Position numbers and translations under genes: made by a program. Under the pieces are notes generated by a model. It saw only the letters and a program-made list of their open reading frames with translations, had not been told where the DNA came from and did not search any database. From Pagrus major (Eukaryota > Chordata > Actinopteri > Spariformes > Sparidae), in contig NC_133235.1 of NCBI RefSeq assembly GCF_040436345.1, forward strand, positions 21,724,660 to 21,788,659: a stretch of 64,000 nt of DNA, in the 5' to 3' direction. Numbering within the stretch: position 1 is the stretch's first letter; the number at the start of each line of letters is the position of its first letter. Shown in pieces: positions 21,201 to 47,600 of this stretch.

Positions 21201-24200
21201 CCTAGACTTTTAGTCAGGCCCATCACCCTTTTGTTATTTCAATTTTCAGAGTTTATTACAACTCTTTAACAACCATTAATATGGTTGTTTTATTTTAATC
21301 TCTGCTATTTCAAGTCAAGTCAAGTATATTTATATAGCCCAAAACCACAAATCACATGATTGCCTCAGTGGGCTTCACAATCTGCACAGTGCACCAAACT
21401 CTCTGTCCTTACACCAAGTGGCAGATTTAGGATGTTTGAAGGGCAGGGGCGACCAGCTGTATGCAGTGGGGCACCAGCTCCCTGAAATTGTTGCTGTTGA
21501 CTTTTTAAGATTTACACGGAAATTTCAAGCTTTGCTTAAAGGGTAGAACCACCAATTTTCCACATTAACGTGAGAGTACAGGTCGTGGGGAGTACTAATG
21601 CATATGTGAAAAAGTAGTATGAAGCCTTTTGTGGCTCCAGAGGAAGCTGCATATAATCTGATTAATTGCCCCCAGTGATGTTACCCAGTGGCTAAGTTGC
21701 ATTGTGGGTAATGTAGATAGCAGGTTGTGAAAAGCAGTCCACGGGTCTAGCGAACCAGAGATATTGCCTTTTTTATTCCACGCATTCTTCCGCTTTTTCA
21801 AAACCTGTCGCCTACATTACCCACAATGCAACTTTGCATCACTGGAGGCAATTTATCAGATTACATGCAGCTTCTTCTGGAGCCCCAAAAGACTTCATAC
21901 TTTTTATACAACTTTTTTCACATATGCAGTAATACTCCGTAAGACCTGTTAACACACTTTAAAGAGTAAAATCAGTGGAGTTACCCTTTAACTTAAACAT
22001 TAAAATGTTCAGAACAAGAATCAATTCACTTCAGGCCTGGTGGGTTACAATTCAAAAGTAGTTTTCTCTCCTGTCCTGACCAGAGAAATCATTGCCTGCC
22101 TTACTCTTCCTGCCTTAGAAGAAAAAGACATAAGAGAGTTTGAATGTTGTTTGAAGTTTGTTTTAGAGGTGCTTCTATTGACTTTTTCATGTGAAACTTT
22201 GATTAAGTCAGCATTAAATCCTGGGATCTGTGCTTGCCTTAAAGAAATTAAGTATTTTTTTCCTGTCGTTGACAACGTACCTGACACGTGTCACAAACTG
22301 TCACAATAAACTTAAACTGACACAGTAAGCTCACCCAAAGCTGCTGAGAAGTACTTGCCAAGCCTCTCTGACTCACATCTGATGGGTATGTTGGCTCATA
22401 GTGTTGTTGCCATGAAGCCTCAGTAAATGTTAGTTGTGTACCACTAAGAATCAGGGAAAGCACATGGTTTATAAACAGTAAAATGGGAGGCATTTTACTT
22501 CCTTAAATATTTTGGATTCTGGTTCGGACTGGTTTCTACGCAGGTTTAAGGCTAAGCAATCTTGCAACTTCCGACTGAACAGGCTGTCACTACAAATCTG
22601 CTGTTCCCGTTCTCCCTGTATCTCTCTGTCCCTTCCCATCTGTCATTCTCTCTCTGCATTATTATCTCTCTTACTCTCTCTCACGCTATCACATTTTCTT
22701 GACACAATCTAAAAGAGAATTCATTAGATGGTAAAAGTGCGCTGTGTGCCTCGCCTTTTTTCTCCCCGCTTTTCTTATTTGCTGCAGGGAAACGTGAATG
22801 ATAGTTACGCAATTATAATCTGTGAGGAGAATGACTCCTCGCAAAATCTTTTATGCAGTTCTTGGCTCCACCTTCAGCACTAAGCTCAGTCTTCTTTCCT
22901 GACAGGCAGCAGAGTGATGTGACGTGATTATGTAAAGTCCACAGAGTGCAACACGTCAGGAGTGAAGCGGTGATGTACTCATTTGGAATAAAGAAATCAC
23001 ACAAGGACACAGAGCAAGAGACAGACAAATGTCAAGCTGAGATAGAGATGTATCCACTTGTTTTTATAAACAGTCGACAACTTTCTCTGTTGACATTAAT
23101 AGTCACTGTGAATATCAGTCTGCTCAGCCGCTGAAGCCAACAGAAATGTTCATTGAGTACTGTCACAGACTGTCAGGGATTGTGGGAAAGATGCTTGTGA
23201 CCACAGATCCAGAAAACCGTAAACGGATGGCTGCTCACTTTTCATCTCTGTTATAATTCACTCCTGTCTGTCTTTACCCTGTCTCAGTATGTTTCATGTA
23301 CTGCTGGATACAAGTGAAGTGATACAAGTGATGCAAGTTGAATGCAAAGCTAAAGGGGCTCTATTCAACAGATTGCTGCAATTTACATGTATTAATCACT
23401 TTTTTATTGGCCATATGTGAGCAGATTGTAATGTGATGCCTCTCTCGGGTTGTATATACAAGTCTGTGGACGCTTTAAGTTGTTTAATGCTGCTGGACTG
23501 TGGATTTCTTTGTGAAGGACTCAGATTGGATTTTCCATGACAGTCCAACGAATGTGACTTTCACACCTTCTTGAGTTCCTCATCTCAGTAACTCTCTCCG
23601 CTCCACTAAAGCAGGGCAACAGAAGCTAATATTAAAAATGGAGCCCGCTAACATAAACTAATGACCACAGAGCCCCTTTAACAGGCACAATAGCAGGTGC
23701 TACACCAGGTGCTACCTGATCATTTGTGTAATTTTGGAGAAGAGACATGGGTTACTGACCAAACACTCTATAACAGTGATTACTGTTTGAATATAGAACT
23801 ATTTTACATGCATTTCACTTAAAGCAGCTTTAAGGAGTTATTTGATTCTCTAATAACAAGTAAATTTTCTTACAGTGTTGTTGGTTCTTATGGATAACAA
23901 CCAGCGTCAACTTTTGTTCCAGGCAGCATTGTTGCAACACAGAGCATCTCTCCTATTCTTTTAATTTGAGAGTTTCGTTATATGTGAACACAATTGACTG
24001 AGCTACATGGGACAAAAAAGTGCATGTAATAATTTGGTTTTATTTATAAAAAGAAATGTGAATATGAATTGCCAGTAAAACCATGTAATCACAGAGCACT
24101 TGACTTGTGTATAGGCATTACATATTGTTGGTCATTGTTGCTTTATATATTACCACCTTGTATGTAGGCCTACATAATATGCTTATTTTTCTGATCTACC

Positions 24201-27200
24201 TTTGTTTAGCTTTGTTGTGCTTGTCTTTCGATATATGTAGGCCAATATTTCCAAGTTGTTCTGTGTGAAAGTACAAATATAGCAACTTGGGAGTCCTTGT
24301 ATGTGAAATAGCATTGTTTAAAATGTTTACATGAGGGGCTATGGACTAGAAATAAAAACTTCATTACATTATACGCAGCTATCACAATCTGCATGGTCTT
24401 CATATTATGAGTTGCTACAGAAGTCCCCCAAAGCACACTAAGTACAGTTGAAAGAGGCCCACCACCTCCCATGTTACAATGCCTCCATCTTGTGGAGCAA
24501 TATGGCAATTTAGTGAAAAATGCCCTCACAGCACACCTGTGCAGTGATGGAATATAACTGAGTACATTTACCCAACTTCTATGCTCAAATCTCGCTTTGA
24601 AGTACGTGTACTTTATTCAAGTATTTCCGTTTTTTGCTGCTTTATACTTCCACTCTAATACATTTTGGAGACAAATACTGTACTTATTTGATAGCTTAAG
24701 TTACTAGTTGCTTTGCAGACTGCATGTTACATCAGAGTCAAAGAAACACATTTAAAAAAAAAAAAAGAAAATAATAAATAAATAAATACATTCTGATTAA
24801 TTACATACAATTATTCACATAATCTGAATATCGGATCAGATTATTCAGTAGTATACAATCACAATAAATACATGTAAATATATTTACTTGCACGTGTATC
24901 AGCGTTACGTGTTTGTACGTAATGACGTAATGACGTACACTTCCAGAAAGCAGGACGTAACGTAGCTTCCATGTTCCAGTGTTTTTCGTGTGGCGGGCAG
25001 GCTGCGGTGTTAGCGAAAAGCCATATTCAAGGCGTAAATGATGTGTCAATAACGCCAAAATGAGCAAGATAATAACAGACCATGGTGAGTGTTTAACACT
25101 CAGCGGACATTACCTCAGTTCAGTCTGTATTTGCCCTCAGGAAAGATAAGAAAATAGCGCCAGAGAGTGATGTTTTAGGGTAACTGACAGGCTAACGTTA
25201 ACGGAAAATGTCTGGTTTATTTTCACCCTTGATAGAAACTGAAATGACAGTTTTAATATTTGTTTCCTTCAGGCTTCCTCCCCCTTTCCTCCCTCCGTCT
25301 TATCGTCCCTCCTCTGCAGCTCGTGTCTGCGGCTCTGTGGGAGATAGTGAAGCAGGGAGCTGTGGTGTACTATGGTCTGCTGGAGGAGTTCATCACCACA
25401 GTGCTGGAAACAGTCCCTGAACTGCTCACTGACACAGAGAGAGTCCAACTAGTTATGGGTCTACGTGCAAAGGTTAGAGGAAGATACAAGATGTCTTAAT
25501 AATGCTGCTACTAACCTGTGCTAGCTACCAGAAATACCAATAGTGGAATGTAAATAAGCATAGTAATAAGTACTGCACTTAAGGACACATTTGAGGTAAT
25601 TTACTTGAGTATTTCCTTCTATGTGTATTCCACATGTAGAGCTGAAATGATTGGACGTGTGTTTTTCTATCCTGGGGCCTCATTTATATATATAAAAAAA
25701 TTCTGATAATGTGCTTGAGTTGGATTCATAAAAAGATGCTGGGCTCAAAAGAATCCAATTTGTAACCTGCGCACCTGTGATCTCTAAATCTCAAATCAAC
25801 TAAAATTGACCTCACCTGCCTTGTGATTTCTCCTTATATGTTGCACAAATGAGCAAATAGTCAGGAATAGAGATGGGGAAAAGAGACAAAATCAAACTTT
25901 TTGGAAGACAAGATCTCAACGACGTTAGAGGGGATTGAAGCCAGGCAACACATATTATTATCAAGTAGACTAAGTAGTGGAGTGACACATGAAGCCAAAA
26001 AAAGCTCTATGGGAGTCTGTCACTGCTGCATATTTTTCATTAAGCTCATTCAAAGCTCACCACACACTTGGACACATACTGTATGTGTCCCAAACCGCAA
26101 TACCTCTACATAACCAGCAGGAAAATCACTTCCATGTAGTCTAGACTTTACTTAGATATAGGATCCTTCCCAAGTCAAAGTAAACTTTGATAAATAACTA
26201 CTCAGATGTGGTTTTCTGTCGTTAAATAAACTTGAGACTTGTTCTGTCTGTTGATGCTCCACCAGGTGGTGCTAGACTTATGCCACAAAGATGATCTTGC
26301 CAGCCTACAGACCATCCAGTCTCATTTGAGCAGAATAAACACCTACATTAAAAACCAGGACAACAAGGTATGTGCTCTTGTTGATCTTCCATTGCTCTTT
26401 GTGTCTTTTTCATTTATTTATGACCTTTTTTATCTGCATTTTTAAGGATTCTAGTTTTGAGGTAGAAGCATCAGTGACAAACTTCCTGAAGCTTGTTAAT
26501 ACTCTCATGGATGATCAATGCCAGAGGGATATCTTTTATCAGGTAAGTTTGTGGTACAATATCATAGATAATCACTACATGCTGATTGCATTTTTGTTGG
26601 TAAAAATGCCTTTTAATTGATTGGATGATAGCCTTAATGCAACGCTTTAGTTCTGTACTGGTTTCAAAGGGCCCTTGCAGTATTTTGTGAAATGTAATGA
26701 AAACTTTCCTCTTTATTCTTTAGAAAATCTTCCCAGCAGTGTTCGGCTCTAAATACGACTCAGCCCTACAGGCTCTGATGAGAAAATTCCTCCTCAATCT
26801 GCAGAAGCTGCTGCCTGTTCCAAACCTAGAACAAGTACGTAAATTACAAATGAAGAAAAAAATACAAATACAAAAATATATAGATATGAAACGATATGTT
26901 TATCTTCTTATTTCATAGTACTTGTCTCTCCAGAGCATGTTAATTGTATGTTTATACTCCTCTGATATGCTCCATCCATAGTAGAAAATTCAGTCATGCA
27001 TGAGTGTGCCCGAGGGTAACAAGTAGAAATAGTTTTGTAACCTGCATGTTAAACCTATGTATGGGAAAGAGAAAAGTATGAGATAACCAGTGGGTATTAG
27101 TTTTCTTGCATTTATAAACTCAAGGGAGTTAAGTAATTCACATTGGTGCATATATTTGTGGTTACATTCAAACAGTCTGGGAAATATAAAAAAATATTAA

Positions 27201-30200
27201 CTGATGTAAAAGTACACAAGGAAAACAACAACATTTATGACAGCAAAACTCCTGAAATGCAAGGACGGAGTTTATTTATCATAATATCTGATGTTGATTC
27301 GAACTGTTCTGTTTCATTTCAAGACTTCACTTTGGCTCAGTCAATCCCCTTCTATCTTGAAAGAGTGTGCTGACTTCATAAATCAACCTGAGCCCCTGAA
27401 TACACTCATTCAGCATCACAAAGATCATGGCCACAAAGTTCCACAAGGTAGAACTTTAAGGACTTTTCACACAATTCCTGATTGACTTACATATTATTAA
27501 CTTTTAGTGAATGAAAATAATTTGTCTTGTCTTTAATTTTTCTTTAGCTTCGCCTTTCTCAGCTGATGATTGCATCCTTTCCAGCCTGTCTTATTGCTTA
27601 CCAAAGGTGGACAATGACAAAGGAGACACACTGTTCAAATCTGGATCCACGTGTGTCTCACAAGACTGGCAGAGAGATAATTTACTTGACAGTGAGTCAA
27701 AAGAGGTTAAAGAAGAAAATTTTAAGGAGATAAAATCAGAATTGATGTGGAATGTAGAAACATATGGACAACAGCATGTTGATAATCTGACTGAAGACCA
27801 GGGGGCCTCTATTGAAGTAATACTTCAACCTTTTGATGAAAGTGAGCCTCATGATGAGGACAACGACATGGACAAAAAATGGCTTCACCATTTGAAAACT
27901 GGCATTCGGACATCTTCCAAAACCTTCAAGTGTCTTGTCTGTGGCAAAGATTTTGGTTCCCTTCCCAAACTAAAGAAGCACAAGACTACACACAGTGATT
28001 TCTTGACAAACAAAAGGAGTCAGTCAAATTCTGCGAGCCACAAGATACATTTACATCTTAAACCAACGACTTGTATTCGTAATAATGCTTCAAGAAGTGA
28101 AGCTGAGCTTCCACCACTGGCAAGTGCCACAACACGTAGCCCATCAAATTTGAATAGACTTCCAAACTTTGAGCAGTCTAATGATAATTGTGATCTTGTT
28201 TGTCATGTTTGTGGCAAGGTTTACACTTACCAAAGGAACTTTGACAAACACCAGATGATTTGCGTGGTCAGTAGTAAACAACAAGCAGAGAAGGACCAAC
28301 AGTGTTCCACAAGCTTTGCTCATCACTCCAAACCGATCCCTGCTGATACGACCAAAGGGTCTCCCCCCAGTGAAACTGAAACTGGGCCTTCAGATGTTGT
28401 ACCCCAGGAATCTTTGGAATCATCTCAACAACAAATGTGTAAAAGAAGCAGTCGTGTCAAACAATGCTCCATATGTCGAGAAGTCTTTACTTGTTCTTCC
28501 AACTTGATGAGTCACATGAGATGCCACATTGAACAGAGTCCTTATCTTTGTTCTTATTGTGGGAAAGACTTTGACAACTACAAAGACTACGAGACACATC
28601 AGGAAGGTAAATGCAGAGTTTCAAAGCAACATTCACAGGACAATCCTCTCAGTAACGCAAAGAAAAGCAAAGAGGAGAATCCAGTTGTTTCAAGTGGAAC
28701 AAATCAGGTCCCAACAATCACAGATGGACCTGCCAACTCACAGGCTGTGCAGCCGTCACCTCTGAAGTGTCAAAAATGTGAGCAGGTTTTTACCTACTAC
28801 AAGAATTTTGAGAAGCACCAGAGCAAATGTTCCAAAAGAGCTCCTCAAAGGAAAAGGCAAACAAACGCAAATTGGGTTGTCAATGGGTGTAATTTCCAAT
28901 CAGCTGACAATACCAATAGCAGCCATGATGAGACAAGTTCTGAAACTGCAAAAACTCCAATCTCTGCAGATGCATCCCAGGCTAAAACTCGCACCTTGAA
29001 GTGCAACATCTGTGAGAAGAACTTTTCAAAAATTGTCCATATGAGCGAACATTATTCCAAGTCACATAAAGTCACCGACTCATACCCCTGCACTTTGTGC
29101 AAGAGAACTTTTGTGAGGTTGTCTGAATTGGTTAGACATCAGCAAAATATGAAATTGTACCAGTGCACCGCCTGCAAGAAATGTTTCTCGAAACCAGGGC
29201 TAAAAGATCATGAAAAAAAACATAATGCGTGTGTAACACCACATGTTTGTGAAACATGCGGGCAAAGCTTCCGATTTCTTGCTTATCTGGTTCTGCACCA
29301 GAGAAAGCACAGAGAAGAGCTGCCTCATATTTGCTCCTACTGTGGGAAACAGTTTAGTACAAAACAATGCCTGAAAGCACACGTGGTGAGGCACACAGGT
29401 GGTTACCCATGCTCGGTGTGCGGAAAGAAATTCTATCAAAAAATATACCTGAAATGGCATCTGTATAAACACACAGGGCAAGAGCCGTACCTGTGCGACA
29501 CCTGTGGGAAAGGCTGGCCAACTGCAGCTCAGCTCAAGTATCACATGATTCAGCATAGAGAGGAAAGGCCGTTCAAGTGTGAAGACTGCGGTGTTTGTTA
29601 CAAGAGGCAATCCAATTTGATTTCTCACCGTAGAGCCGTACATATCCGGTTGCGTCCATTCTTGTGCGAAGTTTGCAACAAAGCCTTTCGATTAAACAAC
29701 GAGCTAAAACAACACATGAGGGTTCACACAGGGGAGCGGCCATTCACGTGTACAAGGTGTGGCAAAAAGTTCAAGAGAAGATTTCACCTTCGACAACACG
29801 GCAAAAAGGCATGTCGGTAACTTCATGCTGTTTGTGGCATGAAGAAGAAAAGGGACCAACAGGTATTTGATTGAAAGTGAATAACATTGATCGTCTCTTT
29901 ACAATGCAGTGTTCTGATCGATAACCATGACTTGTGTAGCTACTCATACTGTATGATAATACACAGCAGATGTAAATGTAAATGGTTTATTTTACTTCAA
30001 TTTATTAATAGACCATAATAGAAATATTGAATGTCAAGTTAACAGATGGTGACACAACATTGATTTTGTATAATATGGGAAAAGCAGTGAAACTTAAGAA
30101 GCTGTTCAAGTCTTTTGATTTCCTAATAAAAAGAAGAAAAAAAAATTTAAAAAAAGCGTTAACAGTGTGGTGGTATCTAATGAATAACAACCAGTATAAG

Positions 30201-31838
30201 TATTTTTTCAAGAGTAATTGTTGTCTTATAGAGAATACATATTTCTTTGTTAAACTTTGTTGTCCTTGTTTTTAATGTGTTTATTTCTGTCTTCCTGTAA
30301 ATTGCTCTGTGTATGTACATCAACAACTTTAATACAAGTCAGATTCATCGTATAACATTGATTAAAAAGTTTACATTATTGGGTAGAAATTAAATCTTTA
30401 TTACATATTATGGCCCCTTCAGAGCTGCAAAGCTTCTCTCATGTTACCTTGCCACCATCTTGTGAATGCCATCTTATGAACTCAAGGCAAGGCAAGTGTA
30501 TTTGTATAGCACAATTCAGACACAAGGCAACTCAAAGTACTTTACAGGGGCATAAAATTACATTCAAAATTGCATTTAAAATACATTAAAAGCTAGTAGG
30601 AAGACACCAAGAAACAAAACATTAAAACAAGTTTAGAAATAGGAAAATAAGCTAAAAATAGGTTTAAAAGACACCAGACTAAAGAATAAAAGTCACAGTG
30701 AAGTTCAAAGCCTCGAAATTGTTTCAATGAAAGGCTGTGGCAAACAGAAAGGTCTTCAGCCTTGATTTAAAAGAGGTGACAGATGGAGCGGACCTGCAGT
30801 TTTCTGGGAGTTTGTTCCAGATGTGTGGCGCATAATAACTGAATGCTGCTTCTCCATGTTTAGTTTTGACTCTGGGGACTGAAATCAGACCTGTACCTGA
30901 CGACCTCAGAGGTCTGGGTGGTTCATAACGTAGCAGCAGATCAGAAATGTATTTTGGCCAGAAACCATTCAGTGCCTTACAAAACCAACAGCAGGATTTT
31001 GAAATCTACTCTTTGACAGACCGGAAGCCAGTGTAAAGGTTGTAACCATGGAATAGATCCATGGTTGTAACAGGCTGAATATGATGAGAAGTGTACGCCA
31101 CTAAAATAAACCCTCATGAAATGTACTGCTGCCTAGCACGTTTGTACGTAATGACGTAATGCGTACGCTTCCCAAAGAGAGGCCACTTGCTTCTGATGTT
31201 GCGTTCGCTTCCATGTTCCAGTGTTTTTGTATGGCTGCGATGTTAGCAGACAGCCACATGCTAACTGAAAAGTTTATGTCCATAACGCCAAAATGAGCAC
31301 GATATTAGGGGACTATGGTGAGTGTTTAACACTCGACTAAACTTACCTCCACTCAGTCTGTATTTGCCCTCAGGGAAGATAAGAAAATAGCGTCAGAGAG
31401 TGATGTTTTAGGGTAACTGACAGGCTAACGTTAACTGAAAATGTATGGTTTATTTTCACGCTTGATAGAAACTGAAATGACAGTTTTAATATTTGTTTCC
31501 TTCAGGCTTCCTCCCCCTTTCCTCCCTCCGTCTTATCGTCCCTCCTCTGCAGCTTGTGTCTGCGGCTCTGTGGGAGATAGTGAAGCAGGGAGCTGTGGTG
31601 TACTATGGTCTGCTGGAGGAGTTCATCACCACAGTGCTGGAAACAGTCCCTGAACTGCTCACTGACACAGAGAGAGTCCAACTAGTTATGGGTCTACGTG
31701 CAAAGGTTAGAAGAAGATACAAGATGTCTTAATAATGCTGCTACTAACCTGTGCTAGCTACCAGAAATACCAATAGTGGAATGTAACTAAGTATATTTAC
31801 TCATGACTAACCTTTCCACAAATTGGTGCCTGTACTTG

Positions 31839-31877
<39 letters not shown>

Positions 31878-34800
31878 GATAATACAATTATTATTATTAT
31901 TAATATCATCAACAATAATAATATAAGTAATGATAATAATAATATAATAATAATAACAATAATAATAATAATAATGGTGTTATCAATATTATAATTGGCC
32001 TTATTTTTAGACTTTACTACCAAGTAACATTTTCAGTGCAGGACATTTACTTGTTACCAGAGATGTTGTTGTAACATATTTCTATAATGTAGTATTGGCA
32101 CTTTTCCTTATGTAAAGCATCTAATGAATTCCTCCACCACTGAAAAATTCAGAGATGAGATATTTGGCACTTGTCTGCAGTGTGGAATCTAACTTAGTGC
32201 ATTTTCTCCAGTACTTGTACAACTCTGAGGTACTCTACACGACTGTTTTCTTATTCTGCTTCTTCCTACTTCTCGCATGTACTTTGTAATATGGTCTTAG
32301 GTTGTAAGCGTTGCTGTACACACAGACTGATCAAGATTACTTAAAAAAAAATTGCATTACCCCGAATAAGAAGTCAGGCAAAGCAATATTTTAGTGGTTT
32401 TAGGGAATGTACTGTGCACCAACAAGTCTTGGAGAAAATCACCTTGTAATATCAAACTTCAAACGGCCATCAACACGTTGTTTGAACATTCTAAGCAATA
32501 AAATACATAATATCCTAGTAGTTCATCAACACAACTAGAACACAGGAGCATGTGAATGTTAAGTTGACAAATAAAGCCTCCACTTCATTTTTCTGTCTCT
32601 TGATGTACCACCAGGTGGTGCTAGACTTGGTCCGCAATGGGGATTTCACCAGCCAACAGGCCATCCAACCTCATTTGAACAGAATAAACACCTATATTGA
32701 AAACCAGGATAAAGAGGTATGTTGTTGTTGATTTTTTCTTGCTTTTTGTGTCATTTTCATTTATTTATGTGCCTTCTTATTTTTATTTCTGCTTTTTTAA
32801 GACTTCAAGTTCTGAGGTAAAAGCATCAGCGACAAACTTCCTGAAGCTTGTTAACACTCTAATGGATGATCAATGCCAGAGGGATATCTTTTATCAGGTG
32901 AGTTGGTTGGTACTATTACATATGTTATCATTACATGCTGTGTGATTTTTTTTCTTGTGGGTTAAATGTGTTTTTATTGATTGGACGATAGCCTTCAGTA
33001 ACGCTTTAGTTCTATAGTGGTGTGAAAGGGGCCTTGCAGTATTTTGTGAAATGTAATGAAAACTTGTCTCTTTATTCTTTAGAAAATCTTCCCAGCAGTG
33101 TTCGGCTCTAAATACGACTCAGCCCTACAGGCTGTGATGAGAAAATTCCTCCTCAATCTGCAGAAGCTGCTGCCTATTCCAAACTTAGAACAAGTACGTA
33201 CATGAACTGTAAACTGTAGAAACTATAGATATGTTACATCTTTAACAGTTTCAGGTATAATACTGCATATTTAAAATGTTCAGTATGTCAACTGTGTTTG
33301 TAGGACAGAAACAAAATATTTATAATCGCTTTCCATACTACTACTCTACAGAGCATGTTAATTGTCACACTGTGCCTACCTTTATACCTGTGATATGCTC
33401 CACTCATAAGTAACAAGAGGTGTGCTGGAGGGTTGCAAGAAAATTAGTTTTGTAACCTGCATGTAAAACCTTTTGTGGAGTCAGCTTTGTATTGGATATA
33501 AGATCTCTAGTGGGTATTTGTTTTCCTGCCTTCATTACCTTGTTAAGTAATCATATCTACATTGATGCAGGGGATGCAGGTAGACAAGAAGTCTGCCATG
33601 ATAGTGAGTGCTGTTCAAGAAGCTGTTTTAGTATTTGTAGGTGACTAAGTTTTCTTATTTTGCTCATTTTGAAAGTCAGCCATGATGATGAGAGTAGGCA
33701 TATTAAGTAAATATGTAAACTCTTTATAATACACCAAAACCAGAGTTACAAGGTGCTTTACGATGAAAACATTGAAGAAAAACAGAAAGTTAAAACAGGA
33801 AATAACCATTCGAAATAAGAAGAAACATCAATATAAACAATATGGTAATACATAAAAAATAATATCTTAATGCCACTACAGGAGAGATTGGATGTTCTTT
33901 ACAATTAGGTGGGAAAAAAATATGTGGGTGTATGTGGGTCAGAAATTCGCCAGGATGTAGTGATGAAAATATCGATTTTGCTAAATCTGTGGTTACTGGA
34001 AGAGGGAGAACAATTTACAATCACCAGTTTCCTCCCTTCTCTTTGAGGTGTTTATGAGAGATTCTGGGAAATGTAGGAAAGTATTTACAGGAAAAGTAAC
34101 AAAATGAATAATTACATAACTCCTGAAATGCAAGAGTAGTGTTCGTATTATAATGTCCAATATTGATTTGAACTGTTCTCTTCCATTTCAAGGTCTCCCT
34201 CTGGCTCAGTCAATCCCCTTCTATCTTGAAAGAGTGTGCTGACTTCATGAATCAACCTGAGCCCCTGAATACACTCATTCAGCATCACAAAGATCACGGG
34301 CACAAAGTTCCACAAGGTAGAACTTTAAGGAGATTTGACACAATTCCTGATTAACTTTTGTATTTATATTTCTTTAGTGACTTAAATAATTTGTGTTTTG
34401 TCTATAATTTCTTTTTTTTTTTTTTAGCTTCGCCTTCTTCCACTGATGATTGCATCCTTTCCAGCCTGTCCTATCACTTATCAAATGTATACAATGACCA
34501 AGAAAACACACGTCAAAAAAACGTCAAATCTGGATCCATGTGTGTCCCACAAGACTCGCAGATAGATAATTTGCTTGCCAGTGAGTCAGAAAATATTAAA
34601 AAAGAAAACTTAATGGAGATTGAATCAGAATTAATGTGGAACATAGAAATAAATGGACAACAGTATGCTGATGATCCGGCTGAAGACCAGGGGGCCTCTA
34701 TAGAAGTAATACTTCAACCTTTTGATGAAAGTGAGGATCATGTGAAAACTGGCAGTCGGAAATCCTCCAAAACCTTCAAGTGTCTTGTCTGTGGCAAAGA

Positions 34801-37800
34801 CTTTGGCTCCCTTCCCAAACTAAAGAAGCACAAGACTACCCATCGTGATTGCTTGACAGACAAAAGGAGTCAGTCAAATTCTGCGAGCCACAAGAAACAT
34901 TTACATCTTAAACCAACAACTTGTATTGATAATAATGCTTCTAGAAGTGAAGCTGAGCTTCCACCACTGGCAAGTGCCACAACACGTAGCCCATCAAATT
35001 TGAATAGACTTCCAAACTTTGAGCAGTCTAATGATAACTGTGATCTTGTTTGTCATGTTTGTGGCAAGGTTTACACTTACCAAAGGAACTTTGACAAACA
35101 CCAGATGATTTGCGTGGTCAGTAGTAAACAACAAGCAGAGAAGGACCAACAGTGTTCCACAAGCTTTGCTCATCACTCCAAACCAATCCCTGCTGATACG
35201 ACCAAAGAGTCTCACCCCAGTGAAACTGAAACTGGGCCTTCAGATGTTGTACCCCAGGAATCTTTGGAATCATCTCAACAACAAATGTGTAAAAGGAGCA
35301 GTCGTGTCAAACAATGCTCCATATGTCGAGAAGTCTTTACCTGTTCTACCGACTTGATGAGTCACATGAGATGCCACATTGAACAGAGTCCTTATCTTTG
35401 TTCTAACTGTGGGAAAGACTTTGACAACTACAAAGACTACGAGACACATCAGGAAGGTAAATGCAGAGTTTCAAAGCAACATTCACAGGACAATCCCCTC
35501 AGCAACGCAAAGAAAAGCAAACAGGAGAATCCAGTTGTTTCAAGTAGTACAAGTCAGGTCCCAACAATCACAGATGGACCTGCCAACTCACAGGCTGTGC
35601 AGCCACATAAATCACCTCTGAAGTGTCAGGAATGTGAGCAGGTTTTCATTTACTATGAGGATCTTGAGAAGCACCAGAGCAAATGTTCCAAAAGAGCTCC
35701 TCAAAGGAAAAGGCAAACAAAGTATTTTATTATCAACGGGTGTAATTTCCAATCAGCTGACCTAACCAATGGGAGCTGTGATGAGATAAGTTCTGAAACT
35801 GCAAAAACTCAAATTTCTGCAGACCTTGCAGAAGTCTCCGAGACTGAATCTTGCACCATGAAGTGCACAATGTGTCAGAAGAACCTTTCAAAAATCCCCC
35901 CCATGAACGAACATTATTCCACGTCATATGACGTTACCGACTCATACCCCTGCACTTTGTGCAAGAGAACATTTGTGAGGTTGTCCGAATTGGTTCGACA
36001 TCAGCAAAACAAAAAGTTGTACCAGTGCGCCACCTGCATGAAATGTTTCTCGATATCAGGACGAAAGAATCATGATGTAAAACTTAATGCGTGTGTAACA
36101 CCACGTGTTTGTGAACCATGCAGGAAAAGCTTCAAATGTCTTGCTAATCTGGCTCTGCACCAGAGAGAGCATGGAGAAGAGCAGCCTAATGTTTGTTCCC
36201 ACTGTGGGAAAGACTTCAGTTCAAAAGACAGCCTGAAAGCACACATGGTGAGGCACACAGATGGTTTCCCATGCCCACTGTGTGGAAAGAAATTCTATAG
36301 AAAATTATCCCTACAATGGCATCTGGATAAACACACAGGACAAGAGCCGTACCTCTGCGACACCTGTGGGAAAGGCTGGCCGAATGCAGCTCTGCTCAAG
36401 CTTCACAAGATTCAACACACAGAGGAGAGGCCGTTCAAATGTGAAGACTGTGGTGTTTGTTACAAGAGGGAATCCAATTTGATTGCTCACCATAGGGACA
36501 AACATATGAGATTGCGTCCATTCTTGTGTGAGGTTTGTAGCAGAGCCTTTAGAGTAAACAGCCTCTTGAAAGAACACATGAGGGTTCACACAGGGGAGCG
36601 GCCATTCATGTGTACAAGGTGTGGCAAAAAGTTCAAACGAAAAACTCACCTTAGGCAACACAGCAAAACGGCATGTCGGTAACTTCAGGCCATCTTTGCA
36701 TGTGCCATTCTTACATTCTACCTCGATATACATAATACATTGATCAGCCAAAACAGAAAAAGGACCAACAGGTAAAATGAATAACATTCATCATCATATT
36801 TCAGTGCAATATTCTGTTGGGAAACCTTGAAATCCTTGCATTCATGTGGATGCCGCTTGACATGCACCACCCACCCAAATACCATTGCAGAACCGAGAAC
36901 TATCCCTCATGGCAATGGGACTTCCAGAAGGCTTCACCTGTTAGTCCTTTAGCCAAGCTCAGATCAGTATCTGTATGTATACATTAGCTTTAGAGGAGCC
37001 CCTACTCTCAGTGACAAACTTATGAAGCATTATCTTCCCCCTGTACAACCAAAAACTTGGTTAAACACCAGAGCCGGCAGCTACAAGTGTGGAAATTGCA
37101 ATCATTGTGGTAATATGACAACATCAGGTCGTAAGAATAACATAAAGTCTTTTATAAATCGCAGTACTTCATAATATGGTTTACAGACTCGAATGTCCAT
37201 GTCCATGACTGGCTGAACATAAACATGCTATAAGAACTGGTATCCTCCAATACCCCCTGGCTTTACATTAGAAAGAGGCTAACCACAGCAGTTGCAGTAC
37301 GCTAAAGATATCAGGCATAGAATGTATAAAGGAGGAGACAGATTAAAAAGGCTCTCACAGAGAGAATCGTTCTGGATATATATATTGAAAGCTACCCAAT
37401 ATCCAGGTTTGAACGGGGAACTAGACTTTTCTTCTTTTTTATAACTGTTTTCTACCAAGGCATCTGAGGCCTTGAAAGTCTGAAAAAGTTATTTTAGACA
37501 TAATTAATTGATGCTTTTCTGAGTGTATTGAAATATTTAGAAATTTGAAAATTTTGTGTATGTATATTTTTCTATTTTCTTGCTCACTGTGATTTTTTTC
37601 CTGCTAAACATGCTTAGTCTTTTGATTTTGACTGTCTAATGATGTGCCTACCAACCTGCTCATACTGATCATGTGATAATTTACCTACCTGCATAGTCTG
37701 TCATGTGGTTTTTCTAGACAAATCATGTTACTGCTCACCTGTCTTCATTGATCATGTGACTGTCTGCTAACCTATAAATGGAAGAGCCCAAAAGTAGCCA

Positions 37801-38643
37801 TTTTGTACTGCCCCGATGAAGGCCTTAATGGCTGAAACACGTAGGCATGTTTTTACTGTTGTTGTGATTCAACAGCCATGATTAATTAAATGCTTTTTAA
37901 CTCATTACCCTCTTGAGTGCCTTTTTCTACAATTCTGATAGTCCTTTAAATGTTGTTGCTGATTGGTGTATATCATAAGTTCCATATCTGTAATATCTAA
38001 GAATCACAGCCTGCCGATGGACAACCATCGAGTGGTGTAGCTAATCATATAGTACAATAATACACAAAAGCTGAACATGAAAAGGGTTTCTTTTACTTAA
38101 TTTAAATAATAGAAATATTGACCAGATTTGAAAGAGTAAGAGCTGAAATATCTCTTGACTTTTCTTGTTAGAAATATGTTATAATTTTGAAGGTATGTCT
38201 CAATATGTTGTCTGTACTGCTGGATATTAAGTTAACAGTTGGCATAGAGGGACTTAAACTCAGTTTTGTTCTACAAGCCTGGTGATGTAAAATGAATTAA
38301 AAATAAACCTTTTACTTTCCTTTTGTTTTGGTAGGCCTATATATAGAGAGAGCACCTTTAATAGCCTACGAGAGTCAGATTCCTTTTTTGTGCAATACCA
38401 TTGATTAAAAAGTTTACATTATTGGCTAGAGATTAAACCTTTACAACATTATATGCAGCTATCACATTTAGCACGGTATTCACATCGTGAGTTGCTAGAA
38501 AAGTCCCCCAAAAGCACACAAAACTTCCAGTGCCACCTGAAGGAGGCTCCTTCAGAACTGAAAGCTCATCCCATGTTACTGTGCCGCCATCTTGTGGGCT
38601 AATTTGGTAATCCAGTGTCAAATGACTTCATAGCACACTAAAC

Positions 38644-38674
<31 letters not shown>

Positions 38675-41600
38675 GAGCTTCTTTCATCGCCAAACAGAAT
38701 GTGGGTTAATGCCTCCTGTGATTTCTAAATGCTAGGAACAGGCTGAATATGATGAGAAGTGTACGCTACTAAAATAAACCCTCATGAAATGTGCCTCTGC
38801 CTTGCACGTTTGTACGTAATGACGTAATGCGTACGCTTCCCAAAGAGAGGCCAGTTGCTTCTGACGTTGCGTTCGCTTCCATGTTCCAGTGTTTCTGTAT
38901 GGCTGCGATGTTAGCAGACAGCCACATGCTAACTGAAAAGTTTATGTCCATAACGCCAAAATGAGCACGATATTAGGGGACTATGGTGAGTGTTTAACAC
39001 TCGACTAAACTTACCTTCACTCAGTCTGTATTTGCCCTCAGGGAAGATAAGAAAATAGCGTCAGAGAGTGATGTTTTAGGGTAACTGACAGGCTAACGTT
39101 AACGGGAAAAGTCTGGTTTATTTTCACCCTTGATAGAAACTGAAATGACAGTTTTAATATTTGTTTCCTTCAGGCTTCCTCCCCCTTTCCTCCCTCCGTC
39201 TTATCGTCCCTCCTCTGCAGCTTGTGTCTGCGGCTCTGTGGGAGATAGTGAAGCAGGGAGCTGTGGTGTACTATGGTCTGCTGGAGGAGTTCATCACCAC
39301 AGTGCTGGAAACAGTCCCTGAACTGCTCACTGACACAGAGAGAGTCCAACTAGTTATGGGTCTACGTGCAAAGGTTAGAGGAAGATACAAGATGTCTTAA
39401 TAATGCTGCTACTAACCTGTGCTAGCTACCAGAAACACCAGTGGTGAAATATAACTAAGTATATTTACTCATGAAACAACCTTAAACAAATTTGAGGTAC
39501 CCGTACTTTAATTATTTTCTCCTCGTGCCACTTTGTATATCTACTTCACAAGTGCAGTTTCAACAATTAGTAGATAAATTCAGTTACATATAATTAATTT
39601 GCAACTTCTTTGACCAGGCTTCATGGTTCCAGCTCAGTCAATATTGTGAGGATGTGCTTTTCTTTTTCATTATTTCAATGATTTTATTTAAAATCATATA
39701 GACAAAACAAGCAATGTAATCATTTTGGGCTATAGGTAATTGTGAATTTCTAGAAAACAAACAATCAATCACCAGTCACCAGATGCTCTTATTTTGCACA
39801 TTGCAATATCAGTATCTACCGGGATCTTGCGCAATCCAGGTCAAACTTTTTGCACTACTGGATGAATTTGGACAGTCTTCACTTACTTTAAAATCGGTCA
39901 CACATTATTTATATTTATATTCACACTTTTATTTTTATTACGTCTTTTAAGTATTTTTAGTATTGTTTGTTGTTTTGCACATACAGACCACAGCAAATTC
40001 ATTGTATGTGTAAACTTACTTGGCAATAAAAGTGATTCTGATTCTGATCAGTTGAGAAAACAATCTTCAGATTAATCCATGATGAAATTAATCAGTAGTT
40101 GCAGTCCTATTCAAAATAGTTTAAAATGAGCTCTACTGCAACCGACTACAACAGTAAAGTCCTGCTTTTACATTACTGCATGAGTAATAATAATCTGTAA
40201 TAGTATAGCAGTCACAGAGGACATCTTTCTTATTAGAATACTTTTTACTTTTAAGTACATTTTTCTGATTATACTTTCACACGTTACTACCAAGTAACAT
40301 GTTCAGTGTGGTACCTTTACTTGTAACAGATAGATAATAGGCACTTGTCTGCAGTGTGGAATCTAAGTACTGTTACTTTAGCATTTGTACAACTTTGAGG
40401 TACTTTACGTGACTTTTTTCTTATTCTCTGACTTTATACCTGTCACATGTCATGTATGACATTAGGTTATAACCTGTATTTGTTGTCCACGCCCTCGCTA
40501 AATTGATATGTCTGCTGTTATGCCACCAGGTGGTGCTAGAGTTGTGCTGCAATGATGATTTTGCCAGCCAACAAACCCTCAAACCTCATTTGAGCAGAAT
40601 AAACACCTACATTGAAAACCACGATAAAGAGGTATGTGCTCTTGTTGAATTTCTCTTGCTTTTTGTGTCATTTTCATTTATTTATGTGCCTTCTTATTTT
40701 TATTTCTGCTTTTTTAAGACTTCCAGTTCTGAGGTAACAGCATCAGTGACAAACTTCCTGAAGCTTGTTAACACTCTAGTGGATGATCAATACCAGAGGG
40801 ATATCTTTTATCAGGTGAGTTGGTTGGTACTATTTAATATATTATAATTACATGGGGTTTGATTTAATTTTTTGTTGGTTTCATTTCTTTTTATTGTTTT
40901 GTCAACAGCCTTCAGTAGCGCTTTAGTGCTGTATTGGTATCAAAGGGGCCTTGCAGTATTTTGTGAAATGTAATGAAGACTTTTCATTTTATTCTTTAGA
41001 AAATCTTCCCAACAGTGTTCGGCACTGAATACGACTCAGCCCTACAGGCTCTGATGAGAAAATTCCTCCTCAATCTGCAGAAGCTGCTGCCTGTTCCAAA
41101 CCTAGAACAAGTTCGTACATGAACTGTAAACTGTAGAAACTATAGATATGTTACATTTTTAATCCTTTCAGGTATAAAACTGCACCATTGAAAATTACAG
41201 TAAATTAACTGTACGTTAAAGGACAGAAACAAAATATTTATATTGTTCCATCAAACTTCTACTCTACAGAGCATGTTAATTGTCACTCTATACCTACCTT
41301 TATACCTGTGATATGCTCCACTCATAAGTAGAAAATTCAGTAATGCAGAGGTGTGCTGGAGGGTTGCAAGAAAATGAGTTTTGTAACCTGCATGTAAAAC
41401 CCTCTGTGGAGTCGGTTTTATATTGGATATAAGATCTCCAATGGGTATTTGTTTTCCTGCCTTCATTACCTTGTTAAGTAATCATATCTACATTGATGCA
41501 GGGGATGTAGTTAGTTGAGAAGTCTGCCATGCTAGTGAGTGCTGTTCAAGAAGGTGTTTTAGTATTTGTAAGTATGAAATCACTAGATATTTTGAACAAG

Positions 41601-44600
41601 AACAAAAAAACAGGTGTTTTTAATGAAATGAGAGATTAAATGAAAATTTGCCACAATGTAGCGCTGAAAATATTGATTTTATCAAATTTGTAGGAAGAGT
41701 AAGAACAATTACAATATCCAGTTTCTTCCCTTTTCCTTGAGGTGTAGAGAGAGATTCTAGGAAATGTAGAAAAGCATTAAGTGTTGCAGAAGTTGACAAC
41801 ATAACTCCTGAACTGCAAGGATAGAGTTTGTATATTACAAAATCTGATGTTGATTTGAACTGTTTCTGTTTCATATCTTCAAGACTTCACTTTGGCTCAG
41901 TCAATCCCCTTCTATCTTGAAAGAGTGTGCTGACTTCATGAATCAACCTGAGCCCCTAAAAACACTCATTCAGCATCACAAACATCATGGCCACAAAGTT
42001 CTACAAGGTAGAACTTTAAGGACTTTTCACACAATTCCTGATTGACTTGTGTGTTTAAAGTTCATGAAAATATTTTCTTTTTTTCCTAGTTCCCTCTTCC
42101 TCTGCTGATGATTGCATCCTTTCCAGCCTGTCCTATCACCTACCAAATGTAGAGGACGACAAAGGAGACACACTTGTCAAATCTGGATCCACGTGTGTCT
42201 CACAAGACTGGCAGAGAGATAATTCACTTGACAGTGAATCAAAAGAGGTTAAGGTAGATCATTTTAAGGAGATGAAAACAGAATTGATGTGGAACGTAGA
42301 AATAAATGGACAACAGCATGCTGATGATCTGACTGAAGACCAGGGGGCCTCTATTGAAGTAATACTTCAACCTTTTGATGAAAGTGAGTCGAATGATGAA
42401 GACAACATGGACAAAAAATGGCTTCGGCATTTGAAAACTGGCAGTCGGACGTCCTCAAAATCCTTCAAGTGTCTTGTCTGTGGCAAAGAATTTGGTTCCA
42501 TTAACAAACTAAAGAAGCACAAAAATACCCATCGTGGTAGCTTCAAAAACAAAATGATTCAGTCCAAACCAATCCCTGCTGATAAGATCAAAAAGTCCCT
42601 CCCCAGTGAAACTGACACTGGGCCTTCAAGTGTTGTACCCCAGGAATCTTCGGACCCTGCTCAAGAGCAAATGTGTAAAAGAAGCAGTCGTGTCAAACAA
42701 TGCTCCGTATGTCGAGAAGTCTTTACCTGTTCTACCGACTTGATGAGTCACATGAGATGCCACATTGAACAGAGTCCTTATCTTTGTTCTTATTGTGGGA
42801 AAGACTTTGACAACTACAAAGATTACGAGACACATCAGGAAGATCAATGCAGAGTTTCAAAGCAACATTCACAGGACAATCCCCCCAGTAACGCAAAGAA
42901 AAGCAAACGGGAGAATCCAGTTGTTTCAAGTGGAACAAGTGCTGTGCAGCCGTGTAAATCACCTCTGACGTGTCAGAAATGTGAGCAGGTTTTTACCTAC
43001 TACAAGAATTTTGAGAAGCACCAGAGTAAATGTTCTGAAAGAGCTCCTAAAAGGAAAAAGCAAAAATATCCAAAGTATTTAATTATCAAAGGGTGTAATT
43101 TCCAATCAGCTGATAATACCAATGTGAGCTGTGATGAGACAAGTTCTGAAACTGCAAAAACTCCAGTCTCTGCAGATGATGCAGATGCGTCCCAGGTTAT
43201 ATCTCGCACCTTTAAGTGCACAATGTGTGAGAAGAACTTTTCAAAAATCCCCCTCATGAGCAAACATTACTCCATGTCACATAAAGTTACCGACTCATAC
43301 CCCTGCTCTTTGTGCAAGACAACGTTTGTGAGGTTGTACGAATTGGTTCGGCATCAGCAAAACAAAAAGTTGTACCAGTGCGCCGTCTGCAAGAAATGTT
43401 TCTCGAAATCAGGACGGAAGGATCATGACAAAATACACACTGCGAGTGTAACACCGCGCGTTTGTGAAACATGCGGGCAAAGCTTCAGATTTCTTGCTCA
43501 TCTGGTTCTGCACCAGAGAAAGCACAGAGAAGAGCAACCTAATGTTTGTTCCCACTGTGGAAAACAGTTCAGTTCAAAAGACTGCCTGAGAGCACACATG
43601 GTGAAGCACACAGATGGTTTCCCATGCCCGGTGTGCGGGAAGAAATTCTATCGAAAATTATACCTGAAATGGCATCTGTATAAACACACAGGGCAAGAAC
43701 CATACCTCTGCGACACCTGTGGGAAAGGCTGGCCGACTGCACACCTGCTCAAGCTTCACATGAGTCAACACACAGAGGAAAGGCCGTTCAAGTGTGAAGA
43801 CTGTGGTGTTTGTTACAAGAGGGAATCACATTTGATCGCTCACCGTAGAGCCGTACATATCCGGTTGCGTCCATTCTTGTGCGAGGTTTGCAGCAAAGCC
43901 TTTCGATTAAACAGCGAGCTGAAACAGCACATGATCGTTCACACAGGGGAGCGGCCATTCTCATGTCCAAGGTGTGGCAAAAAGTTCAAGAAAAAATGTC
44001 ACCTTAGGCAACACGGCAAAAAGGCATGTCGATAACTTCAGGCTGTCTTTGGACTAAGTGCTAAAACTGTTCATGAATCATGTGCCATTCTACATTCTAC
44101 CACGACATACATACGTCAAAAGTTCTGTCAGCTACCATGTCTTAATGCTCTATATCCGGTAAATGAGCTCCGTTTTGTTTGATACTGTGAATGATTTTCA
44201 TTCACTGCGAATAAAAATGGTACTCAGACAGTGTGTCAAATCAAAGTCTTTTCTAAAGTGTGCTGATGTCTACAAGGTTTCCCCGAGGCCTACAAGGAGC
44301 TCAAGGCTGTCTGATAGAAGTAGGGAGAGGCAGACTCAATTTAGCTTTGGGTGAATCGAGTCCAACAGAAATAGCAGAGATCATGTACGAACAACTGATG
44401 AAACACTCACCGGGCTTTATAATAATGCTGTAACATCTGTTGTGATACGGCATACTTAAACAAACGAAGGGCACATAATGAGTGCTTTTCTTGGTAAATG
44501 TTTGAAGATGTCGTCGCCTTTATATATGGGGAACTGAAATGAGCAAAATGTGCTACTCTTTATTGTTTTATATAAGTATATGAATATTTTTTGAGTTCTG

Positions 44601-47600
44601 ATCAAGCATCCGTGGGACGTACCTGAACAAGTCCAATCTTTGGAGGCCCCTCCGTGGATTGGACTTGGCTCTGACTCACTGAGGCATTGACACAAGACCT
44701 CTGGGGTTGTTTTGTGGTTTCTGGCACTGCAACAATGTTTGGCTGGGTGTTGCATGTCAATTGGCAGCCACATGAATGCAAGGAGCCGAGGTTTCCCAGC
44801 AGAACATTGCGTTGTTACAAGATGATCCATGTCAGTCACTTCACATGTAAGTGGTCGATCGGTGTATGTATAGCTACACATTTAACCTTGTGTGGGAGCC
44901 TGCTGCTGCAGAAAAAGCATTGCTCCACCAGGGAGCAGTGGCACTCCAGAGACTGCCTCCGTTCCATCAGCCAGTCAAACTGTTTTTTATGTACAAGATC
45001 TATAAATGATATTTAATTTCACACACCACATCCTTTGAAATGGCAACATGCAACAAATCTCTATGACTGTCCAGCTGTCAAAATGAAAATGACTTTTGGA
45101 CTACAGAACATTTTGATGTTGAAAAATGAGGATAAAGATGCAGCATGTGCTACATCTTTCATCAGATTTGTTGTTTCAAGCTTTAGATCTGTTCTGTATA
45201 CCGACTGAGCCTTGTCTCTGCGGAGAACAGAAGAATCCTCAGTTTGGGATTTTCCATGTTGTCTGCTAATTAAAAAACAGTGTTGCAGGCGGGGTGATGG
45301 GGTTTGACAGACATCAGCTTTTTTGATGGGGGAATGAAAATCTCTGAAATAACTGCAAAGTAGAAACTCAAGGACATTTGTGAGTCCTGTTTAATCAAAG
45401 ATGCGACAAGGGAAAGGGAACACTGCATACTTTAATATTTCAAGCTTGTTGAGAGGGCTGTGGACAGGATGTGCCACACAAATTTTGAGGTAATAACGTT
45501 TGGTTATACGCTCACAAAATCGCACTACTTGACAACAACCTCATGAAAATGGAAAGAGAAGAAGCGCCAGAAAATGAAAGCAATCTTCACTGGATCTTGC
45601 AGCACTTGGTGGTGGGCAGACTGTGCCACTCCTCTGGGATGTTCTGGCTGTCTCTGTCTGCAGAGACACTCAGATTTTTTCTCCGTCTGAAACCTCCATC
45701 TGTCCTGCCTGCTTTTGATGAACACCGCAGTATGGAGTGGACTATCAACCAAAGAGCTTAGGTCCCCTCTGGCCTCTTCTGGCTCTGCTGAAGTTAAGAC
45801 GAATATCTCGTGGTCTCAGGCACAGGTAGCTCAGCATTTATATAACAAGTCACATCAAGGAGTTTTCTTTTTTACTCATGAGTCATGACTGCTGTGATCA
45901 TTGTCACAATTACTACAGAATAATTACCCATAGACCATGATACAACGATGCACAAGGGTCATTTTAAATCTGTAGGTGGTATTGATGCAGTAATGGCTTT
46001 CGATGCGACCCCATACCCTCGCTGAAGTCAGACGGACAGAAACCTCACTGTCGTGTTTCACCTTATTATTAAGATTTACAGAAGTAGTTAAGCCTCAATG
46101 AGAAAACAAAAACTATATGTTCAAAGTCAGTGTAACTTTTTGCTCAAAATATTAATCTGCTTTGGGGCAACTTTGCACCTGCTTGCGTTTGCACCTGCCT
46201 AATACAGGCATAAAAAAGAAAAAATGAATCATGTTGACAGTGACAACTGATCATTGGCCTAATTATTTTATTGTTTCCTTAGTTTTAAAGCGCATAATTA
46301 TATTAATGGCTGTTAAATGTTCTAAATAAAAATAAAATGGTTCTGATTGACTACTGGCAATCTTCAAAACCTTCAAAAAGCCTTTAAAAATGTGCAGATC
46401 CTAATAATTTCTGATTTGTAATGCAAAAATAACTATAATATATGCAGTGGTTACTGTTACCAACAAGATGTTAAAACAGATACAGATCTTCTGGTAATGA
46501 ATATTTGCAAACGTTGCCACAAAATCACCTTATACTTTATTTATCTGATGATACCCTGAGAGAATGCTGTTTGGTTTTTATTCCCATTTGTGGGATTGTT
46601 TTCCGTCTTTATTAATGTATATTACTGTAAGTATCCAAAAAGGGGACAAAGTCAATATTTTGTCACTGCAGTTATTATGTGATGTGATTACAAAATCGAT
46701 TCTACGTCGGATCTGTGGAGGAAGGAGGAGCAGACTGTCCCCTTTGGTTCAATAACTTAATTTCACAGAATTATTCACTTCAGATCGCAGTCATTTATCC
46801 TGTGGGCTATTAGTCTGTTTATACACAGGCTTACATAACTGTCTGAAGAGTGCAGGCATAATTCACCACAATGTTCCGTGTAGACAGAAGTGAAGAGCTT
46901 CAGGTTTATACTACAACATAAAGATGAATACTTGGAGAGATTCAGTGTGACATTGTGACAACTACTGTAGTACTGCAATCTTTATATTCTAAAAAACGTA
47001 AAGTTGTATTATTGTTAATTTGTGGTTTATGTGACAAAACATTTGAGGATTAACAAACATCGGGCTGTGTAGCTAATCAAATTTGGTCAAATACATCAGC
47101 TGTTAATGTAAATCGTCTCTTTAATCTCATTTAAACGATGGAAATATTGACTGCGTTCGGAAGCATAAGAGTTGAAATGTATCCCGACTTCTATCATACA
47201 GAAATAAGATATAGTTCTGAAGGACTGCTGAGTGGTGCAATGCAGCTTTGATTGAATTGAGTCCTGGATTTGCAGCAGCGTTGACGGGATTCTGACTCTG
47301 TAAAGTCTCTTACTCAGCAGAAATGTCTTGAAGAGCTGGTGCACTATGGGAGCTGCACTGGTGACGCCAGCAACAAATGCCATTCTGTACACATTCATCA
47401 AATCCACTCATAATGGATGCCCGTCGTTTGTCCCCCACCTGCCTGACATTATCTCTCTGAGAATATATATTTTGTTGTCACTGTAGATATCAAGGATATC
47501 ACCCATCCATCCTTCAGGCAGCAGACTGGATACAGTGTGCTGCCTCCTTTGTTTTACTTCCTTGTATCCGACAGAATTTATTGCATGTTGCTTTAAATTC

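Follow-up and report, generated by a model that had tools for sequence, protein, structure and literature searches.

Introduction

KRAB, SCAN and BTB zinc-finger families join an N-terminal interaction domain to a C2H2 array, and they show tandem duplication with divergence of contact residues in some copies. Zinc-finger families are named by the domain before the fingers because that domain decides recruitment. A fish-specific module of this sort, FiNZ, is described as a 28-amino-acid, single-exon segment unique to cyprinids (PMC10547256). The nearest literature to the genes considered here concerns zebrafish proteins with a common TIN2 N-terminus and differing C-termini, zinc fingers being unmentioned (PMC3032778). 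In that study of 2011, co-immunoprecipitation showed TPP1 binding for only one of the three zebrafish proteins carrying the TIN2 domain; the N-termini of zfTIN2-2 and zfTIN2-3, whose C-termini are unstated there, did not co-precipitate with zebrafish TPP1. Either substitution F152A or E153A in human TIN2 abolishes binding of TPP1 and TRF2 (PMC8262337). No description of TINF2_N-zinc-finger proteins was found among the listed titles and abstract openings of open-licence papers.

Organization of the locus

Splice-signal models predict three genes, g1, g2 and g3, on the + strand of the window, by which we mean the whole 64,000-nucleotide stretch of Pagrus major DNA analysed (Table 1). The initial annotation had proposed three tandem seven-exon genes sharing the lengths of exons 1-6, and the models agree with it exactly in their outer coordinates. 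Exons 1-6 measure 25, 200, 102, 96, 111 and 124 nt in every copy and precede a single long finger exon of 2273 (g1), 2255 (g2) or 1946 nt (g3); all introns have GT/AG boundaries and internal stops are absent. By script comparison, the Pagrus major database proteins P0002 and P0004 equal g1 and g2 in every letter, and P0044 equals g3 minus 37 residues of exon 5. A 988-amino-acid relative, P0021, is encoded in an unbroken open frame on a 4,676-base contig covering the equivalents of all seven exons, which counters, though it does not close, the possibility raised earlier that the N-terminal exons are not spliced to the finger exon.

With a human PHACTR1 query, tblastn located PHACTR1-like exons on the - strand at 55055-54948, 12240-12052, 3356-3258 and 501-160. 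The first two bracket g1-g3, placing them antisense in a PHACTR1-like host intron as proposed; a search for the RPEL motif of PHACTR1 found nothing. Identity among g1, g2 and g3 is 93-97 % in intron 1 and 99.5-100 % in exon 2, after which diverged DNA begins, and this segment resembles a gene-conversion tract. A gene order that includes a sirtuin gene is shared with Nibea. Scans of the window for tRNAs and Rfam families gave no matches, and tblastn of six N-termini detected in it no upstream Myb-type exon of the kind present in grouper relatives.

Table 1. Coordinates of features in the window
Feature	Position	Strand	Details
g1	25060..29820	+	7 exons: 25060-25084, 25273-25472, 26266-26367, 26447-26542, 26724-26834, 27324-27447, 27548-29820; 976 aa
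g2	31293..36682	+	7 exons: 31293-31317, 31506-31705, 32615-32716, 32802-32897, 33083-33193, 34193-34316, 34428-36682; 970 aa
g3	38961..44035	+	7 exons: 38961-38985, 39174-39373, 40530-40631, 40719-40814, 41000-41110, 41884-42007, 42090-44035; 867 aa
TINF2_N (TRFH-like) domain	g1 25273..26834 (exons 2-5); g2 31506-33193; g3 39174-41110	+	Pfam, all three
R161-K162 codons of g1	26781..26786	+	alignment with human TIN2 F152-E153
SUMO-interaction-like motif	g1 27811..27840 (10 residues); g2 34700-34738; g3 42353-42382	+	before the fingers
g1 finger exon	27548..29820	+	13 canonical C2H2/C2HC fingers and further degenerate ones, preceded by a linker
Gene-conversion-like tract	25186..25540 (limits approximate)	+	intron 1/exon 2 near-identical across g1-g3
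PHACTR1-like host intron	12052..55055	-	exons 55055-54948 and 12240-12052 on either side of g1-g3

The TIN2-like N-terminal domain

The Pfam scan covered g1 in full and residues 1-219 of the g2 and g3 proteins. TINF2_N (PF14973) matches residues 31-178 of g1, g2 and g3 with E-values of 2e-43, 1.6e-42 and 3.1e-43 and scores of 148.7, 145.8 and 148.1 bits (gathering score 29.4 bits), the whole profile (1-149) being aligned. For g1, the domain also matches the solved human TIN2 structure by sequence in a PDB search, and its predicted fold matches the solved human TIN2 TRFH domain, 5XYF; the 50 Foldseek matches listed are all finger proteins, and 5XYF was found in the VIA rows. Profile, sequence comparison with the solved human structure and predicted fold thus all bear out a TIN2-like N-terminus, and a lack of significant similarity, which the initial annotation had named as grounds for abandoning its reading, is not what we see.

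By alignment, R161-K162 in all three proteins corresponds to F152-E153 of human TIN2. This pair reads W-E in 123 of 124 TIN2 domains, with one gap (120 of 121 in a smaller set), in 11 of 12 domains of the Myb-type group, again with one gap, and, among finger proteins, in many relatives outside the branch of the window genes (91 of 203 gap-free domains). The R-K pair and the zebrafish co-immunoprecipitation of 2011 (PMC3032778) argue against a shelterin role through TPP1 in this branch. A strict pattern for the TIN2L-type tail, whose yield of 93 of 120 fish TIN2 is a lower bound that misses obvious tails, matched none of the three window proteins. The FxLxP-type TRFH-binding motif is likewise absent from all three, and also from all 120 fish TIN2 by the same pattern, which therefore does not discriminate. 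Pagrus has a separate TIN2 (tinf2) protein, P0133, and in the second tree seven TIN2 rows are set apart from the remaining 53 by a branch with support of 100/100, so g1-g3 are not orthologous to tinf2.

The finger region

A strict pattern identifies 13, 12 and 12 C2H2/C2HC fingers in g1, g2 and g3, and one with looser spacing 14, 12 and 13; Pfam zf-C2H2 matches 12 stretches of g1. The suggested figure of up to about 15 is approached by g1 once degenerate fingers, judged by eye, are added, and g3 has no equivalent of g1's finger 2. The predicted acidic block corresponds to a stretch at about residues 315-325. The putative SUMO-interaction-like motif follows a pattern written after inspection of the relatives and kept in 34 of 36 chosen ones. 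No KRAB, SCAN or BTB domain was listed for g1 with an E-value limit of 1, although most matches above 0.1 are removed by filters.

Divergence of the DNA-contact residues exceeds a fairer control in the pairs g1-g2 and g1-g3 only. Against all other finger residues, the excess in g2-g3 has p = 0.02, and 12 comparisons with other sparid proteins gave five at p < 0.01 and seven at p > 0.05. dN/dS at non-contact finger residues is low (0.19-0.37). The shared fingerprint is kept within 12 differences by 24 of 30 non-sparid relatives; eight sparid and three wrasse sequences deviate from it. A test of 65 disjoint pairs found no family-wide acceleration of contact residues.

Distribution of the family

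The TIN2-type TRFH module ranges from tarpon and arowana to bream, and the DNA-binding modules it precedes differ, being fingers or Myb/MADF-type. Support exists for the idea that the family is lineage-expanded, but its members occur across teleosts and it predates Pagrus major. Myb/MADF-type proteins nest among finger proteins in both trees, of which the first has human TIN2 as a very long branch (4.02) and the second leaves it out; the branch of the window genes has a long stem in the second tree (0.53). No tetrapod, shark or gar member occurs among the named matches listed in three protein searches (the best 120 of 144, 365 and 739), some rows of which are nameless.

Interpretation

The gene layout, TIN2-type TRFH domain, finger array, SUMO-interaction-like pattern, replaced TPP1 pair and contact divergence in two of three paralogue pairs were observed directly, and we favour, with a probability of roughly 0.55, the view that g1-g3 are sequence-specific DNA-binding chromatin adaptors whose TIN2-derived domain docks a partner other than TPP1. 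The fingers would choose genomic sites, the TRFH domain would dock a short peptide of that partner, and the SUMO-interaction-like motif may engage SUMO-modified co-regulators, most likely repressive ones. The ancestral gene would have arisen through placement of duplicated N-terminal TIN2 exons before DNA-binding exons, prior to the crown teleost split; in sea breams, tandem duplication would have been followed by drift of finger contacts to new specificities, the one fingerprint being held by most of the non-sparid relatives examined. The TIN2-like N-terminus and the expanded family of the initial annotation are supported, and its protein-recruitment module is a role that the domain may have.

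The same domain could instead still bind TPP1 or TRF2, with the fingers bringing parts of shelterin to telomeric or interstitial DNA. Clear TIN2 homology and the W-E pair of many relatives would suit this, but the R-K pair of g1-g3, the human substitutions (PMC8262337), the failure of the zfTIN2-2 and zfTIN2-3 N-termini to co-precipitate TPP1 (PMC3032778) and the missing TIN2L-type tail pattern make it quite improbable. Silencing of transposable elements, as by KRAB proteins, with the bream triplet as an arms-race expansion, is doubtful but has more in its favour: tandem copies with contact divergence, the sparid and wrasse deviants, the SUMO-interaction-like motif and the parallel with FiNZ finger genes (PMC10547256). 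Fingerprint conservation and the lack of family-wide contact acceleration are, however, unlike a continuous arms race, and just three copies lie within the window.

That fingerprint conservation, like the gene order shared with Nibea, would also fit ordinary developmental or housekeeping transcription factors, the domain then having a structural or dimerising role with no particular partner to recruit. This we think unlikely, since the domain is kept before modules as different as fingers and Myb/MADF-type repeats and the long stem looks more like a remodelled interaction surface, although neither point is decisive. Chance similarity, wrongly joined exons or pseudogenes are hardly credible: database models are automatic, but the open frames, canonical splice sites and equal exon lengths of three copies, the TINF2_N E-values of about 1e-43 to 1e-42, the continuous frame of P0021 and the low dN/dS largely refute an artefact.

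Beyond the adaptor reading of g1-g3, a wider one, which we rate as somewhat less likely than not, is that teleosts made the duplicated TRFH domain of a shelterin hub into a general effector-docking module that serves zinc-finger and Myb-type proteins alike, a fish counterpart of KRAB and SCAN. In the spiny-rayed branch, the change from W-E to R-K might then have turned the TPP1-binding helix towards another partner, and W-E branches could still carry TPP1-POT1 to finger-chosen non-telomeric sites. This large fish family seems to have reused a telomere-protein module, and the window's branch probably does so without the usual telomere partner. A shelterin-derived docking domain ahead of fingers in a teleost-wide family ties telomere-protein evolution to gene regulation, and offers a clean comparison within one fold, since some branches retain the TPP1-binding pair and others have its charge reversed, in fish that possess true TIN2 as well. 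We note that a database name taken from TINF2 does not make a fish protein a telomere protein.

Comparison with known systems

The N-terminal domain of g1-g3 is TRFH-like and homologous to that of TIN2 (Pfam TINF2_N; for g1, also 5XYF by fold), and soon after it comes, as in fish TIN2, a short ILxSLSL-type motif; unlike TIN2, g1-g3 have a zinc-finger array in place of its C-terminus and R-K rather than F/W-E at the TPP1-binding pair, and they are genes separate from Pagrus tinf2. Fish proteins of the zgc:113263 type also place a TIN2-like module before a DNA-binding region, although theirs consists of Myb/MADF-type repeats and not of fingers. The arrangement of an interaction domain before a C2H2 array, the tandem duplication and the contact divergence among some copies recall KRAB-, SCAN- and BTB-zinc-finger proteins, from which g1-g3 differ in that their module is spread over exons 1-6. 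Cyprinid FiNZ-zinc-finger genes (PMC10547256) are similar in carrying a fish-specific N-terminal module on C2H2 arrays, whereas the module of g1-g3 is a TIN2-type TRFH domain.

Gene models and genomic setting

The initial annotation had described three tandem genes joining a TIN2-like domain to C2H2 zinc fingers, and this observation is borne out by three models (g1, g2 and g3) that can be followed through their splice signals. Exons 1–6 have the same lengths in all three (25, 200, 102, 96, 111 and 124), exons 3, 4 and 5 are in phase 0 at both ends, and exon 7 encodes the linker and the fingers. Among the database proteins fetched as relatives, P0002 and P0004, both from Pagrus major, are exactly the g1 and the g2 model, respectively. 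P0044 is the g3 protein minus exon 5, an in-frame skip that removes the helix bearing an R-K pair; such skipping is a possible switch of docking surface. The 4,676-base contig of P0021 (source label lgn) encodes 988 aa in one open frame; the protein aligns with g1 across all six exon junctions and shares 677 of 968 residues with it. This protein and the similar short-contig cases P0061 (2781 bases), P0107 (3571) and P0289 (3502) look like products of spliced transcripts.

The three genes are bracketed by minus-strand PHACTR1-like exons, and a SIRT5-like exon follows g3 further along the plus strand. Since P0072 of Nibea albiflora, whose record name is sirtuin-5, reads as a TIN2-domain finger gene merged with a sirtuin end, its structure suggests that the order of finger gene and then sirtuin also occurs in that species and looks conserved; the sirtuin-5 annotation itself looks wrong. 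The window also holds a large inverted repeat that contains a 20-base tandem repeat.

Features of the three-gene region (window positions)
Feature	Position	Strand	Description
g1	25060-29820	+	seven exons, intact, splice-signal model
g2	31293-36682	+	seven exons, intact, splice-signal model
g3	38961-44035	+	seven exons, intact, splice-signal model
g3 exon 5	41000-41110	+	skipped in P0044
Intron 1/exon 2 tract (g1)	25186-25540		near-identical in all three genes
Second tract, part of exon 7	about 27957-28700		93-99 %, g1 vs g2
Open frame between g1 and g2	30724-31005	-	resembles a fish LINE-type reverse transcriptase tail
SIRT5-like exon (presumed)	~58924	+
Inverted repeat	16606-17132 / 17790-18316		527 nt, 95 % complementary, 657 nt apart

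Among g1–g3, identity is 93–97 % in intron 1 and 99.5–100 % in exon 2; it is 43–52 % in intron 2 and 80–85 % in exon 3. Gene conversion is likely to lie behind this tract and the second one in exon 7.

Extent of the family and relation to TIN2

Three protein searches (best 120 of 144, best 120 of 365 and best 120 of 739) supplied 354 proteins, all of which score above 60 bits for the domain (Pfam TINF2_N). The proposed relation to TIN2 is upheld. At least five C2H2 fingers are present in 191 of them, at least two in 202 and none in 149, the last figure taking in true fish TIN2, which was the target of one of the searches. The combination of TINF2_N and fingers is already visible in databases and, among the matches listed, is present in tarpon, eels, arowana, shad, smelt, salmonids, pike and many spiny-rayed fish. 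Pagrus has its true TIN2 (P0133) on another contig and an additional TIN2-domain finger protein (P0318).

In a tree of 60 domains, which is rooted on TIN2 and partly unresolved in its deeper forks, one 100/100 branch parts seven TIN2 rows from the 53 others (finger and Myb/MADF types from arowana, elopomorphs and further teleosts). A TIN2L-like tail was recognized by eye in the TIN2 rows of arowana, elephantfish, Megalops atlanticus and Takifugu, and was absent by eye from the five fingerless rows on the non-TIN2 side, some of which have database names starting TERF1-interacting. The simplest reading of these sequences is a duplication predating crown teleosts, and the g1–g3 type of protein is distinct from TIN2. 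In some relatives that have fingers (P0023, P0025, P0003 and P0094), the TIN2-like domain is also preceded or followed by a Myb/MADF-type domain; the module thus occurs among two kinds of DNA-binding domain, and some of these may be merged gene models.

Two short motifs, whose patterns were both written after inspection of the sequences, accompany the domain: an ILxSLS-type motif directly after it in 228 of the 354 proteins (0.7 % of shuffles), and [VI]EVIL-P-F-D-E followed by acidic residues, before the fingers, in 34 of the 36 relatives selected from the g1–g3 branch. The ILxSLS-type motif is common to TIN2, Myb and finger types; the other resembles a SUMO-interaction motif.

Variation in finger contact residues

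Among g1–g3 the NG86 dN at DNA-contact positions (-1, 2, 3 and 6) is 0.22–0.28, versus 0.04–0.08 at other finger residues, and contact residues differ in excess of all other finger residues in each pair (P=6e-5 for g1-g2, 1e-5 for g1-g3 and 0.02 for g2-g3). Against the fairer control of other variable finger positions, the excess is seen for g1-g2 (23/52 vs 30/143, P=0.002) and g1-g3 (19/48 vs 19/132, P=0.0007) but not for g2-g3 (15/44 vs 29/121, P=0.23). Twelve further comparisons involving Acanthopagrus or Sparus proteins, made against all other finger residues, gave P<0.01 in five and P>0.05 in seven. There is no family-wide excess over 65 disjoint pairs (362/2987 vs 1057/8213), the contact rate being higher than the control in 20, lower in 39 and equal in six.

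Within the g1–g3 branch, 24 of 30 non-sparid proteins, some of them partial and with as few as 24 contact positions, lie within 12 contact positions of their own consensus fingerprint, and three wrasse sequences are among the six exceptions. In the eight sparid sequences, which represent three species, 38–58 % of the positions present depart from this consensus. Control positions are raised too in the bream genes (g1 35/143, g2 43/143 and g3 28/132, versus 13–21/143 in the six non-sparids counted), so the drift of the bream fingerprint is partly general. A second lineage of TIN2-domain finger proteins of about 716 aa (P0318, P0302 and P0349) has contact residues nearly unchanged across species; P0318 and P0349 differ at 0/56 contact and 22/154 control positions, a pattern that suggests a conserved DNA target.

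Comparison with TIN2 and predicted function

Among the listed matches in the open-licence literature, a description of the family was not found beyond the sharing of the N-terminus noted in PMC3032778. The main text of one fish finger-family paper (PMC10547256) does not contain TINF2, TERF1, shelterin or telomer, nor that of another (PMC11603059) TINF2 or TIN2.

The TPP1-binding pair of human TIN2, F152-E153, is W-E in 123 of the 124 fish domains classed as TIN2 and in 120 of 121 in a first, smaller set, with one gap in each. Finger-protein domains number 216, of which 13 are gapped at the pair; among the remaining 203, W-E is found in 91 and two basic residues in 56. The pair is R-K in g1, g2 and g3 and in most tree members of their branch, with a few K-K or R-M, and the stem leading to this branch is long (0.53, 100/100 in the 60-domain tree; 0.56 in the first tree). 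In human TIN2, according to PMC8262337, A15R, F152A and E153A each alone abolish binding of TPP1 and TRF2, W198A has a partial effect and K160A none; in zebrafish, only one of three TIN2-domain proteins co-precipitated zebrafish TPP1 (2011; PMC3032778). Because of the R-K pair, the mutagenesis of the human pair and the zebrafish result, binding of TPP1 by g1–g3 would be unlikely. In this branch the protein is unlikely to act through TPP1, a partner of human TIN2; its most plausible role is that of a DNA-guided adaptor whose docking domain would have been put to a new use.
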